Shown piece after piece: positions 4,494 to 27,560 of a stretch of 64,000 nucleotides of DNA. The stretch lies in the IMG/VR virus record IMGVR_UViG_3300032213_001264, positions 1 to 64,000 of that record, one strand, 5' to 3'. Each line of letters starts with the position of its first letter. Position 1 is the stretch's first letter. Origin of the DNA: a virus. The notes beneath the pieces were generated by a model, which searched no databases, had not been told where the DNA came from, and was given only the letters and a program-made list of their open reading frames with translations. Position numbers and translations under genes: made by a program.

Positions 4494-6113
4494 ATGAGTA
4501 CAACAAAAAATATAAACGGAACAGAACTTAAAGAAAAGTTACTTTCTGGTATTGAGAAATTAAACTTAGCTGTATCTTCTACATTAGGACCAGGCGGTAG
4601 AACGGTTTTAATTAGAGAACAAAACGGTGAAGTTAAAGTAACCAAAGACGGCGTAACAGTAGCTAAAGCATTCCATAAATTGGAAGACGATGTTGAAGAC
4701 TTAGGCGCACAGTTAGTAAAGCAAGTTAGTATTAAATCTGCAGTTGAAGCTGGAGACGGTACAACTACTTCTACTTTATTAGCAACCGAAATGGTTAGAG
4801 AAGGATTGAAAGAAATTCGTCAAGGTTCTAACGCAGTAGAGATCAAAAACTCAATCGATAAAACAGTTAAACAAGTTATCGAATACATTAAGAAAATATC
4901 TATCGACATCGATTCAGAAGAACAAGTAAAACAAGTTGCTACTATTTCTGGTAATAACGATCCAGAAGTTGGTAACCTTATTGCATCTGCAGTAGAAAAA
5001 GTAGGTCGTGAAGGAGTAATTACAATCGAAGAATCTAAATCTGGAGAAACTAGTTTAGAAGTAGTTGAAGGTATGCAATTTGATAGAGGTTACAAATCTC
5101 CTTATTTCGTTACCAACAACACAACGATGCAAGCGGTATTAGAAGATCCTTACATTTTCTTATACGATGGTAGAATCTCTTCAGCACAAGAGTTATTGCA
5201 AGTTTTAACTAAAGCAAACTCTGAGAACAAACCATTGTTAATCGTAGCTGAAGATATCGGTGAAGAAGCATTAGCAACTTTAATCGTTAACAAGATGAGA
5301 GGCATCGTTCAAGTTTGTGCAGTTAAAGCACCGGACTTCGCAGAGAGAAAAACGCTGATCTTAGAAGATATTGCAATCTTAACAGGAGGTGCAGTCGCTT
5401 CTAAAGACAAAGGTCACAAATTAGATAAATTAACTGGAGCTCAAATCAACGAGTTCTTAGGTAGAGCTAGATTGGTTACGGTAACTAAAGACGAAACTAC
5501 TATCATCGATGGCAAAGGCGTTGAAACTGTAATTGAAGCAAGAGCAGAAGAGATCAAAGAGCAAATCGAAAAGTCTACTTCGTTCTACGAGAAAGAGAAG
5601 TTACAAGAGAGATTGGGCAAATTAGTAGGCGGAGTTGCAATCATCAACGTCGGCGGTAATTCAGATATCGAAATTAGAGAAAAGAAAGATAGAGTTGAAG
5701 ACGCATTATATGCAACCAAAGCAGCGTTAGCAGAAGGTATCGTACCAGGCGGAGGTTCAGCTTTATTCCAAGCGTCTATTCAACACCATCCAGAAGAGAC
5801 TATCCACGATGCTATTGCTTATGGAATTGTTCAGAAAGCGATTCAAAGTCCATTCAAGAAAATCTTAGAAAACGCGGGAGTTCAGGATTGGTACACAAAA
5901 ATTCCTAACGAAGGCGACGTATACGATGCAAAGAATCACAAGATTGTTAATGCTTTAGAAGCTGGTATTATTGACCCTACGAAAGTAGTTATCACCGCAC
6001 TTAGAAACGCTGCTTCAGTAGCAGGCACTATTTTAACTACTGAATCTGTAGTATTCGAAAAGAAAGACAAAGAAGAAAAAACTCAAGACCCAATGATGGG
6101 TATGGGAATGTAA
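4494..6113 (+). CDS. groEL: GroEL chaperonin
   Basis: A complete 539-aa chaperonin subunit that folds proteins inside an ATP-driven double ring. The nucleotide-binding motif [11 protein letters not shown] (with the catalytic Asp), the apical segment leading into DIAILTGG, the [11 protein letters not shown] motif and the C-terminal DPMMGMGM tail are all present. The apical GFGDRR-type helix is altered to DFAERK, a place where substrate or GroES contacts could differ from the host protein. With groES it forms a closed two-gene cassette. Phage GroELs are known from Pseudomonas jumbo phages; they are thought to fold phage proteins late in infection. Having its own GroES makes independence from the host chaperonin plausible. 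Confidence 0.97.
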
Positions 6114-25131: not shown

Positions 25132-25502
25132 GGGGATGCTTTGGAATTGATTCACAATTCGGAGGTAATACCACACGCAGAGAGAAGTACTAGATCTCTT
25201 TAAATCTGTACAAAACAATAACCGACGAAATGTCAACAATGACCTTCGATTCTTTAATGGAATTCGTAGGCGCGAACGAGTACGCATTAGCTGCTTAATT
25301 AGCATCGGGTGTAACATCCTAGGAACAGAAGTTACAAGCCAAATTTTCTTAGTTTAGATTAAAATTAAGTGGTGGATATCGTAAGGACCAAAAACCATAC
25401 GACCCTTTTACTGATCAGCTTAAAACGTAGATCTAAGCGTGTGAGACGTTGGTATTATTATTCATTGTGAAGACACGAGTTCGACTCTCGTCATCTCCAC
25501 CA
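25132..25502 (+). ncRNA. ssrA: tmRNA (ssrA), one-piece
   Basis: A complete 371-nt transfer-messenger RNA that frees stalled ribosomes and tags the stalled peptide. The acceptor stem is GGGGATG (25132-25138) with CATCTCC (25492-25498) and an encoded ACCA end. The G3-U70 wobble that marks alanine acceptance is present (25134 with 25496). The T arm ACGAG-TTCGACT-CTCGT is perfect. The internal reading frame at 25269-25298 encodes GANEYALAA and a TAA stop, with the usual ALAA degradation end. Bacteroidota tags that I recall have a similar GExNYALAA form, which supports the host assignment. No SmpB gene is seen in the window, so host SmpB would be needed. Confidence 0.95.
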
Positions 25503-25933: not shown

Positions 25934-25939
25934 AAACAC

Positions 25940-26005
25940 AACTACCTGCCGCTGGTATAACCAGAGCATGACTTGGATGGCGACTTAGAAAAATTGTAGG
26001 TAGTT
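25940..26005 (+). ncRNA. Structured RNA candidate (branched hairpin)
   Basis: AACTACCT (25940-25947) pairs perfectly with AGGTAGTT (25998-26005). Inside, GCC/GGC (25948-25950 with 25979-25981) encloses a CTGG-TATAA-CCAG hairpin. The 66-nt size and branched shape resemble a small tRNA-like or regulatory RNA, but it has no T-arm consensus. It could also be the 3' end structure of the preceding mRNA. Confidence 0.45.
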
Positions 26006-26021
26006 TGTTTCAATATTAAGG

Positions 26022-26127
26022 TTGATTGGAATGTATCCTTTAACTGTAGAAAGGGCGGGTACCTCGCGGTTAGAAATGCCAATCGTAAAAGCAGATGTCC
26101 ACGCACCCATCTTCTGCTTTCCTAAAT
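26022..26127 (+). ncRNA. Unrecognised structured RNA, copy 1
   Basis: First of two related elements. P1 is GATTGG (26024-26029) with CCAATC (26079-26084); it encloses hairpins CCTTT/AAAGG (26037-26041, 26050-26054) and GCGGG/CTCGC (26055-26059, 26063-26067). Downstream P4 is AAAGCAGA/TCTGCTTT (26088-26095, 26113-26120) with a loop holding TGTCCAC and CCATC, then a T run. The 3' 56 bases match copy 2 without gaps at 47 positions. One P4 pair changes from C-G here to G-C there, so base pairing is preserved. It ends like a terminator but is much more elaborate. Confidence 0.6.
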
Positions 26128-26136
26128 TTTTTTGGG

Positions 26137-26277
26137 TTGATTGGGGAATGGTATAGGTTAGCCTGTTGGTGGCGCTCAAAAAGCATTGGCCGACTATATC
26201 GGAGTTTAAACCATCATTAGTAATGCCAATCATAAAAGGAGTTGTCCACTGAACCATCCTCTCCTTTCCTAAATTTA
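26137..26277 (+). ncRNA. Unrecognised structured RNA, copy 2
   Basis: Second copy. P1 GATTGG (26139-26144) with CCAATC (26226-26231) encloses a larger 81-base insert than copy 1 (49 bases), with candidate stems GGTATAG/CTATATC and CCGA/TCGG. P4 is AAAGGAG/CTCCTTT (26236-26242, 26261-26267) with the same TGTCCAC...CCATC loop and CCTAAATTT tail. The conserved frame with variable insert resembles a family of related small RNAs. It sits directly before the tRNA-like element. Confidence 0.6.
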
Positions 26278-26281
26278 ATAT

Positions 26282-26396
26282 GCCGGTGTGGCGGAATAAA
26301 CAGTGTCTACTGACGAGTAGCATTGAGACGTACCTGATTCGAAGTGGTGGAGTGACCGAAAAGGACTCCGTGAGGGTGAAAATCCCTTCCACCGGC
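26282..26396 (+). ncRNA. tRNA-Leu-like element, degenerate
   Basis: GCCGGTG (26282-26288) pairs fully with CACCGGC (26390-26396), and the adjoining TGGCGGAAT matches the start of a tRNA-Leu. The 3' part GTGAGGG...ATCCC resembles a T arm but its loop reads TGAAAAT, lacking the TTC core, and one extra base separates it from the acceptor stem. The middle is too long (115 nt in all) and folds as CTACT-GACG-AGTAG and GGAGT/ACTCC hairpins. Either a decayed or interrupted tRNA-Leu, or a tRNA-like RNA with another job. Confidence 0.4.
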
Positions 26397-26467
26397 ACCG
26401 TATTGGTTTAAAAAAAATCAAAAATTAGTAATAGTATTACCGATATTGCGATAATTTTAAACTGACA

Positions 26468-26490: not shown

Positions 26491-26531
26491 ATATAAAATA
26501 AACAGGACCATTGGCATTGACGTCTTAAGCT

Positions 26532-26598
26532 GGTGGTTGGTGGTTGAAGAAACGCAATACTAAGGGTCTGCAGCCCTAGTCTAAGTATTGTCGCCACC
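26532..26598 (+). ncRNA. Structured RNA candidate before tRNA-Thr
   Basis: GGTGGT (26532-26537, or again at 26539-26544) can pair with GCCACC (26593-26598). Inside, CAATACT/AGTATTG (26555-26561 with 26584-26590) and AGGG/CCCT (26563-26566 with 26574-26577) extend the hairpin around a CTGCAG apex. It looks tRNA-sized but lacks a T arm and a U33, so it is probably a different RNA or a decayed tRNA. Confidence 0.4.
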
Positions 26599-26603
26599 GT
26601 AAT

Positions 26604-26676
26604 GCCTTGCTAGCTCAGTTGGTAGAGCAGCTGATTTGTAATCAGCAGGTCGGCGGTTCAAGTCCGTCGCGAGGCT
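26604..26676 (+). tRNA. tRNA-Thr (anticodon UGU)
   Basis: Acceptor GCCTTGC/GCGAGGC, D arm GCTC/GAGC, anticodon arm GCTGA-TTTGTAA-TCAGC and T arm GGCGG-TTCAAGT-CCGTC form a complete cloverleaf. The anticodon TGT reads ACA. CCA is not encoded, so it must be added by the host. Confidence 0.97.
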
Positions 26677-26801
26677 CACAAATCGTTCGAACGTGGAACG
26701 ACGAAGACGGCCATGGCATACCGTAAGATCTGCTTGCTTAATAGCCCCGAATCGTATGTCGGCGATGTTGGCAACTCATAGGGTAATTTAAAAGTTGTAA
26801 C

Positions 26802-26887
26802 GGAGAGATGGTAGAGTTGGTCTATTGCACCTGACTTGAAATCAGGAGACTGTCACAGGTCCGTGGGTTCGAATCCTACTCTCTCCG
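26802..26887 (+). tRNA. tRNA-Ser (anticodon UGA)
   Basis: Acceptor GGAGAGA/TCTCTCC, anticodon arm CCTGA-CTTGAAA-TCAGG (anticodon TGA, reads UCA), a long variable arm typical of serine tRNAs and T arm GTGGG-TTCGAAT-CCTAC. CCA is not encoded. The 125-base spacer before it holds no gene and only a weak TCGTTC/GAACGA hairpin. Confidence 0.96.
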
Positions 26888-26890
26888 CAT

Positions 26891-26961
26891 TGCCCTTTAG
26901 TATAACGGTAGTACGACTGTTTTTGGTACAGTTTGTTGTGGTTCGAATCCATGAGGGGCAA
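26891..26961 (+). tRNA. tRNA-Gln (anticodon UUG)
   Basis: Acceptor TGCCCTT/AGGGGCA, anticodon arm ACTGT-TTTTGGT-ACAGT (anticodon TTG, reads CAA) and T loop TTCGAAT. Only 3 bases separate it from tRNA-Ser, so they are surely co-transcribed. The three tRNAs read A-ending codons that this AT-rich phage uses heavily. Confidence 0.95.
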
Positions 26962-26981
26962 CTCAATTAAAAATTAAAACT

Positions 26982-27284: not shown

Positions 27285-27560
27285 ATGGAAACACTATCAT
27301 TCGTTTTAGGGATGAGCTTAGTGGTGGTTATCGCTTTAGCGGTAGTTGCTGTTACTGCCTTCGTTAAGACCATAAAGTTAGAAAAAAGAATCGAAGACCT
27401 TAATAGAGACGTTATTGAAATTGACGCTCAAACAAATAGAGTACTATCCTTAGAGATAGAACGAGTTGACAGAAATCGAGTAGAATCGGAACAAGCTATA
27501 TACAGCATAATGGATTCTCGACTAGATAAATTAGAACAAAAATTAACTAACAAAAAATAA
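27285..27560 (+). CDS. Membrane-anchored coiled-coil protein
   Basis: A 91-aa protein with a strong N-terminal transmembrane helix (about residues 6-29) followed by a coiled coil of about 55 residues. The start has a GGAG site 9 bases upstream, rare in this genome. Both sides of the gene carry segments complementary to each other, suggesting translational control or RNA protection. Size and layout recall small phage lysis-timing or membrane-scaffold proteins. Confidence 0.65.
   Translation: METLSFVLGMSLVVVIALAVVAVTAFVKTIKLEKRIEDLNRDVIEIDAQTNRVLSLEIERVDRNRVESEQAIYSIMDSRLDKLEQKLTNKK

Follow-up and report, generated by a model that had tools for sequence, protein, structure and literature searches.

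A family of pseudoknotted structured RNAs associated with tRNA arrays in large uncultivated phages

Between the tmRNA and the tRNA genes of an environmental virus lie two adjacent, closely similar elements, and the question raised by this locus is what they encode and how it might act. The stretch of DNA analyzed (the window) comprises 64,000 nt, positions 1 to 64,000 and most of the 65,554-base IMG/VR virus record IMGVR_UViG_3300032213_001264. The original prediction, drawn from the letters of the window, read the elements as two copies of an unrecognized structured RNA in which base pairing had been kept. Hundreds of homologues with strong covariation and without an Rfam match support that reading; further homologues with covarying stems, for which the prediction had proposed to search as its own refutation test, were found, so the reading withstood it. 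Recomputation reproduced the gapless alignment of the 3′ 56 bases of both copies (47 of 56 identical), the outer GATTGG/CCAATC stem enclosing inserts of 49 and 81 bases, and the P4 pair that reads C-G (GCAG/CTGC) in the first copy but G-C (GGAG/CTCC) in the second. To these are added here a closing stem, P0 (AGG/CCT), present in the copies, a pseudoknot joining the P1 interior to the P4 loop (PK2), and a second pseudoknot within the insert of copy 2 (Table 1). The two copies are separated by 10 nt.

Table 1. Features of the two RNA copies and their array in the window.
Feature	Position	Strand	Evidence or remarks
Copy 1 of RNA, class C, insert type b, P0 to P0	26019–26123	+	CM R1 98.4 bits, E 1.2e-22; itself among 81 training sequences
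Copy 2 of RNA, class A, insert type a, P0 to P0	26134–26270	+	CM R1 108.6 bits, E 3.3e-25; itself among 81 training sequences
Copy 1 P0 5′ strand AGG	26019–26021	+	Pairs with CCT 26121–26123
Copy 1 P1 5′ strand GATTGG	26024–26029	+	P1 pairing and variants across extracted copies
Copy 1 PK2 5′ strand GGTT	26068–26071	+	GGT pairs with ACC 26105–26107
Copy 1 P1 3′ strand CCAATC	26079–26084	+	P1 pairing and variants across copies
Copy 1 P4 hairpin	26088–26120	+	AAAGCAG 26088–26094 / CTGCTTT 26114–26120
Copy 1 invariant P4 loop GTCCAC-GCAC-CCATC	26097–26111	+	Loop constancy in hits seeded on P1 and flanks
Copy 2 P1 5′ strand GATTGG	26139–26144	+	P1 evidence as for copy 1
Copy 2 PK3 5′ strand TGGTGG	26167–26172	+	Pairs with CCATCA 26211–26216; by eye, PK3 measured only in related subtype a1
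Copy 2 PK2 5′ strand GTTT	26204–26207	+	Pairs with GAAC 26251–26254; type a pairing pattern
Copy 2 P1 3′ strand CCAATC	26226–26231	+	P1 pairing and variants across copies
Copy 2 P4 hairpin	26235–26267	+	AAAGGAG 26235–26241 / CTCCTTT 26261–26267
Copy 2 invariant P4 loop GTCCAC-TGAA-CCATC	26244–26258	+	Loop constancy in hits seeded on P1 and flanks
tmRNA upstream, same array	25132–25502	+	ARAGORN and Rfam RF00023
tRNA-Thr, tRNA-Ser, tRNA-Gln downstream, same array	26604–26962	+	ARAGORN, Rfam

Fold, covariation and invariant core

The RNA folds as a three-way junction of P0, P1, and P4, to which pseudoknots are added, with helix consensus sequences of AGG/CCU (P0), GAUUGG/CCAAUC (P1), and AAAGNAG/CUNCUUU (P4). 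In 81 representatives these helices were 99.4% paired, compared with at most 57% in slid controls, and they contained 108 double-changed cells compared with 24.6 in shuffles. P0 varied in the representatives at its third pair (AU/UA/GU) and its second (GC/AU), while P4 cells were 99.3% paired and the central pair was seen as GC, CG, UA, AU, UG, and GU. P1 was paired in 187 of 187 distinct extracted copies, pairing itself having been an extraction criterion, and took the forms GATTGG/CCAATC, GACTGG/CCAGTC, AACTGG/CCAGTT, GATTAG/CTAATC, GATCGG/CCGATC, AATCGG/CCGATT, and GAACGG/CCGTTC. A possible extra helix, ATG/CAT above P4, was rejected because TT and TC variants break it.

PK2 is formed by a strand within P1 that pairs with the P4 loop; this strand was placed by fixed anchors and not by complementarity, and type d registered poorly. 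Among type a copies 86 of 89 were fully paired (GUUG with CAAC or CGAC, GUUU with GAAC), with 337 of 340 cells paired against 297 ± 4.7 when shuffled. In type b, three of four positions were paired in 51 of 58 copies, GGU/ACC alone being kept, and in type c GGGG pairs with CCCC. Subtype a1 (18 sequences, class A) has 41 pairs in seven helices with two pseudoknots and is 98.6% paired; both sides had changed in 26 of these pairs and 0 of 500 shuffles matched this, although shuffle counts here and above overstate significance among related sequences, whereas slid controls (35–50% paired) retain relatedness. Its second pseudoknot, PK3, is a 9-bp helix between the P2 loop and the strand following GGAGUU, and by eye a counterpart is seen in copy 2 of the window and in its relative L060 (GTTGG/CCAAC). 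Energy folding of single copies gave values close to those of shuffled sequences (z = 0.15 and -0.29), and the minimum-energy fold differs from the covariation fold, the folding program being unable to form pseudoknots. The support for the structure is covariation, not energy.

Constancy of the loop was assessed in distinct hits picked solely by GGTTGATTGG...CCAATC(A/G)TAAAA, i.e., by P1 and its flanks. Among the matches listed, GTCCAC stood at the same place in 147 of 147 such hits and CCATC in 146 of 147, giving a loop of the form GUCCAC-nnnn-CCAUC. All parsed copies share the UU that follows P0 and the UAAAA that precedes and begins P4, UU and UAAA having been parsing criteria; when stretches were seeded on the hairpin, UAAA was present in 170 of 173 distinct ones among the matches listed. 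Because the P1 interior varies while the loop and junction stay constant, the core of the RNA is P0, P1, PK2, and P4, with P2 a tolerant appendix. The interior measures between 16 and about 100 nt and occurs in at least four types, with several unrelated folds, bearing out the earlier suggestion of a family with swappable inserts. In class A, which is named for an A at the fourth variable loop base, the variable module inside P1 is itself pseudoknotted, and two loci (L008 and L013) carry what appears to be another RNA of the array inside P1. By eye, a tRNA-like RNA (TCAGCAGGGGACTTGTAAACCCC...TGCTGA) sits inside the P2 position in these two loci, whereas in L047 and L112 it follows the element as a separate RNA.

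Extent of the family, carriers and genomic setting

IMG/VR was scanned with a pattern of CCAATC, 9–13 nt, TGTCCAC, 3–5 nt, and CCATC, which allows 15 spacings; among the matches listed, 115 of 126 had the exact spacing of the window (11,4), and the pattern is therefore far from chance. Scans without the P1 constraint, and others without the P4-loop constraint, also gave many matches. After parsing, the family comprised at least 241 copies, at least 187 of them distinct, in at least 232 loci, with RNA lengths of about 70–160 nt and a shortest member of about 72 nt. The parsing rule demanded a paired P1, and the loss was small because L010 and L137 were the only otherwise clear members to fail it. 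Scans for alternative P1 sequences yielded one true extra member (L313), and L334 was rejected as a chance match in coding sequence. The copy in L137 (9704–9766, minus strand), which adjoins tRNA-Thr, has a P1 interior that is almost wholly deleted and is probably a decayed copy.

Among all collections searched, the family was found solely in IMG/VR viral contigs. The carriers are large uncultivated phages, one lineage of which is related to a Flavobacterium phage. By DNA polymerase, the nearest cultured relative of the window virus is Flavobacterium phage immuto (55% identity); the virus also encodes GroEL. The terminases (TerL) of 13 carriers form three groups at most 32% identical to each other; one group clusters with immuto (57%), and the nearest database relatives of the other two are only 28–38% identical. 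For the lineage of the window only, we infer a Flavobacterium-like host. Model searches did not find the element in immuto and gave no credible match in PAU, in Lak-C1, or in three records of huge phages whose terminases are related, and among 297 genomes sampled from the phylum of L249 CM R1 had no hit. Blastn searches of 50,697 cultured-phage records (with the window and types a and c) and of plasmids (with a minimal type b copy) returned chance pieces only and could miss divergent members; divergent members could likewise escape the pattern scans of about 85,000 prokaryote genomes (GTDB), which gave 0 and then four chance matches without P1.

Across the 232 loci listed, ARAGORN placed a tRNA no more than 300 nt away from 186 copies. 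Among the 241 copies listed, 96 begin within 15 nt after a tRNA, mostly at 3–4 nt, and 139 end within 15 nt before one, mostly at 5–7 nt, and the strand is shared with the neighboring tRNA in 169 of 169 upstream and 181 of 181 downstream cases. The neighboring tRNA species vary, and the features downstream are many tRNA species or unrelated proteins. Class A copies are almost always within tRNA arrays, whereas half of class C is not near a recognized tRNA; in 31 of the 121 class C copies listed, a protein gene begins no more than 100 nt downstream, and 13 copies among these 31 lie directly between two protein genes. A protein gene also follows the RNA in four class A copies, and the start codon is usually 14–29 nt past P0. 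No partner protein common to the ORFs near the element was recognized. When 50 contigs (28–321 kb) were searched whole with model R1, 48 contained one copy and the other two contained two; with usually a single copy per genome, the RNA is no repeated spacer and suits a gene product. Most tRNA–tRNA junctions are without the element (1,443 gaps, median 12 nt). Nine two-copy loci were found among those listed (the window, L014, L051, L059, L104, L113, L204, L231, and L235), representing about three lineages, and all have class C followed by class A at a distance of 10–11 nt; there is a hint that the two classes are not redundant.

Several other features of these arrays were observed. In the window, 25934–26013 is likely a structured RNA, AACTACCTGCC...GTAGGTAGTT enclosing GCTGGTATAACCAG, whose 3′ part is found again immediately before the element in L005, L088, L093, L096, L113, and others. 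Downstream, a tRNA-like element spanning about 120 nt (26279–26399) has GCCGGTG/CACCGGC ends and received no ARAGORN or Rfam call; in L005, L096, and L113 the RNA is likewise followed by the start of this element. Between the tRNA genes lie a stretch with GGCATT...AATGCC ends and a GGGTCTGCAGCCC hairpin (26505–26610) and a second unassigned stretch (26676–26795). A small membrane coiled-coil protein (METLSFVLGM...) adjoins the tRNA array in the window (27285–27560) and in L253 (20371–20676); it is common to many carriers, and a similar protein occurs in phage immuto.

Relation to known RNAs

None of the 4,227 covariance models of Rfam 15 matched 26019–26270 at gathering score or at E ≤ 5, while the same scans did detect the tmRNA, the tRNAs, and GOLLD in a relative. 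We regard the RNA as new at the family level, and it is set apart from GOLLD and ROOL by size, sequence, and fold. The tRNA cluster of phage T4 contains the stable RNAs C and D (species 1 and 2), small non-tRNA RNAs of unknown function, which share with the present family the placement of a non-tRNA RNA within a phage tRNA cluster; the sole comparison with them was by blastn, in which T4-like phages of the cultured-phage collection had no match to the RNA. GOLLD (RF02032) and ROOL are structured RNAs of phages and prophages, also of unknown function and often near tRNA islands; the ROOL studied is 659 nt, GOLLD is often >800 nt, and both form RNA-only nanocages (PMC12286853). The tRNA-island setting is a likeness to both, as is, for GOLLD, the combination of a conserved 3′ part with a variable 5′ part, but the RNA described here is only about 72–158 nt, has another fold and sequence, and matches neither model. 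In one carrier (L030), GOLLD (516–918) and a member of the family (about 4915–5015) are separate. The open-access literature searched on phage tRNA-array RNAs described GOLLD and ROOL, and the present family was not found in it.

With tmRNA and tRNA (Rfam clan CL00001) the RNA shares arrays and probably also transcript and processing. An assignment as tRNA or tRNA-like RNA was rejected: the RNA lacks an acceptor stem, a T arm, and an anticodon arm, and ARAGORN and RF00005 call the flanking genes only. A type III toxin–antitoxin RNA, for which short pseudoknot repeats in tandem immediately ahead of a toxin nuclease gene would be expected, was likewise rejected: copies number at most two, belong to different classes, lie 10–11 nt apart, and are flanked by tRNAs. 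No recurrent neighboring gene family near the element was recognizable as a toxin.

Proposed function and alternative readings

We favor, with a probability of about 0.62, the reading that the element is a stand-alone small RNA gene representing a new RNA class, transcribed with the tRNA array, released by tRNA enzymes, and acting in trans. Single copy number and variable neighbors favor a trans product over a processing signal or gene leader. Position in the array and spacing make it likely that this is an abundant small RNA transcribed during infection. The RNA would be co-transcribed with the tRNAs and released by the enzyme trimming the 3′ end of the upstream tRNA and by RNase P at the 5′ end of the downstream tRNA, leaving tails of 3–7 nt, and would presumably have neither a promoter nor a terminator of its own. 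PK2 folds P4 against P1, and the folded RNA may act in trans, its invariant loop strands offering a surface for one conserved partner, candidates for which are proteins of the host or the phage and ribosomal RNA or tRNA. The invariant loop beside PK2 is the natural candidate for a binding or active site. Most plausibly, the RNA would take part in translation or in tRNA metabolism in the infected cell, or serve as a decoy for a host factor that binds or cleaves RNA. RNAs that are small, conserved base for base, and folded with several pseudoknots are rare, and those that are understood are mostly ribozymes, riboswitches, or the cores of RNA–protein machines. More tentatively, the element may represent a new class of phage RNA machine, whether a self-cleaving ribozyme of new fold or an RNA that acts in trans by capturing a core host factor, with a loop conserved base for base over three deep phage lineages and delivery via tRNA processing.

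Three points count against the trans-acting reading: the ORFs near the element revealed no partner protein in common, a cis role is possible where a protein gene follows class C copies, and the extreme conservation of unpaired bases would also fit a ribozyme core. The most interesting rival is a new self-cleaving ribozyme, in which a double-pseudoknot active site made of GUCCAC, CCAUC, and UAAAA would cut the tRNA precursor. Like twister, pistol, hatchet, HDV-like, and hammerhead ribozymes, several of which are pseudoknotted, the RNA is compact and has an invariant unpaired core with variable peripheral stems; it is small and pseudoknotted, nearly all its unpaired core bases are invariant, its peripheral insert is tolerant, and it is located between tRNAs that need separation. 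However, one copy among up to 27 tRNAs per locus would part a single junction, the closing stem P0 holds both ends together, some copies lie between protein genes, and the RNA differs from the small nucleolytic ribozymes in matching no Rfam ribozyme at E ≤ 5, which leaves self-cleavage unlikely.

The protein genes that follow 31 class C and four class A copies listed, with 13 copies between two such genes, are what would be expected of a leader acting in cis on the following gene, be it a riboswitch, a translation element, or an antitermination element. Most copies are instead followed by tRNAs, the downstream proteins are mutually unrelated except for one family in one phage group, and P0 and P4 have no alternative partner or sequestering arm; a riboswitch or mRNA leader was rejected for want of a constant downstream gene function, and cis action in general appears improbable. 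The 3–7 nt gaps to same-strand neighboring tRNAs would also suit a processing or spacer signal of the tRNA array without a product of its own, yet its single copy per array, the many tRNA–tRNA gaps without it, and its presence where there are no tRNAs render this quite improbable. A coding or transcription-terminator feature mimicking RNA structure could be suspected from the CCTAAATTTTTTT that follows P4 in copy 1 and from the 137-aa minus-strand ORF (25985–26398) that overlaps both copies. As the original prediction had noted, all nine differences within the repeat alter the amino acid of this ORF; most relatives have no U-run, and the tRNA begins 5–7 nt past P0. An intrinsic terminator, which would be a GC-rich hairpin with a U-run closing the transcript, was rejected: the base of P4 is largely A-U, and CCU(A/U) comes next, usually with a tRNA behind it. 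Three stems show double-sided pair changes, and this covariation already contradicts the coding or terminator reading, which is scarcely credible.

The RNA is widespread in environmental phages, yet searches of cultured phages and cellular genomes did not find it, which would explain why it has been overlooked until now. Its size of about 72–158 nt permits direct work on structure, probing, cleavage, and pull-down. The family is thus a compact addition to the question of why phages keep orphan RNAs such as GOLLD, ROOL, and the T4 RNAs C and D near their tRNAs.
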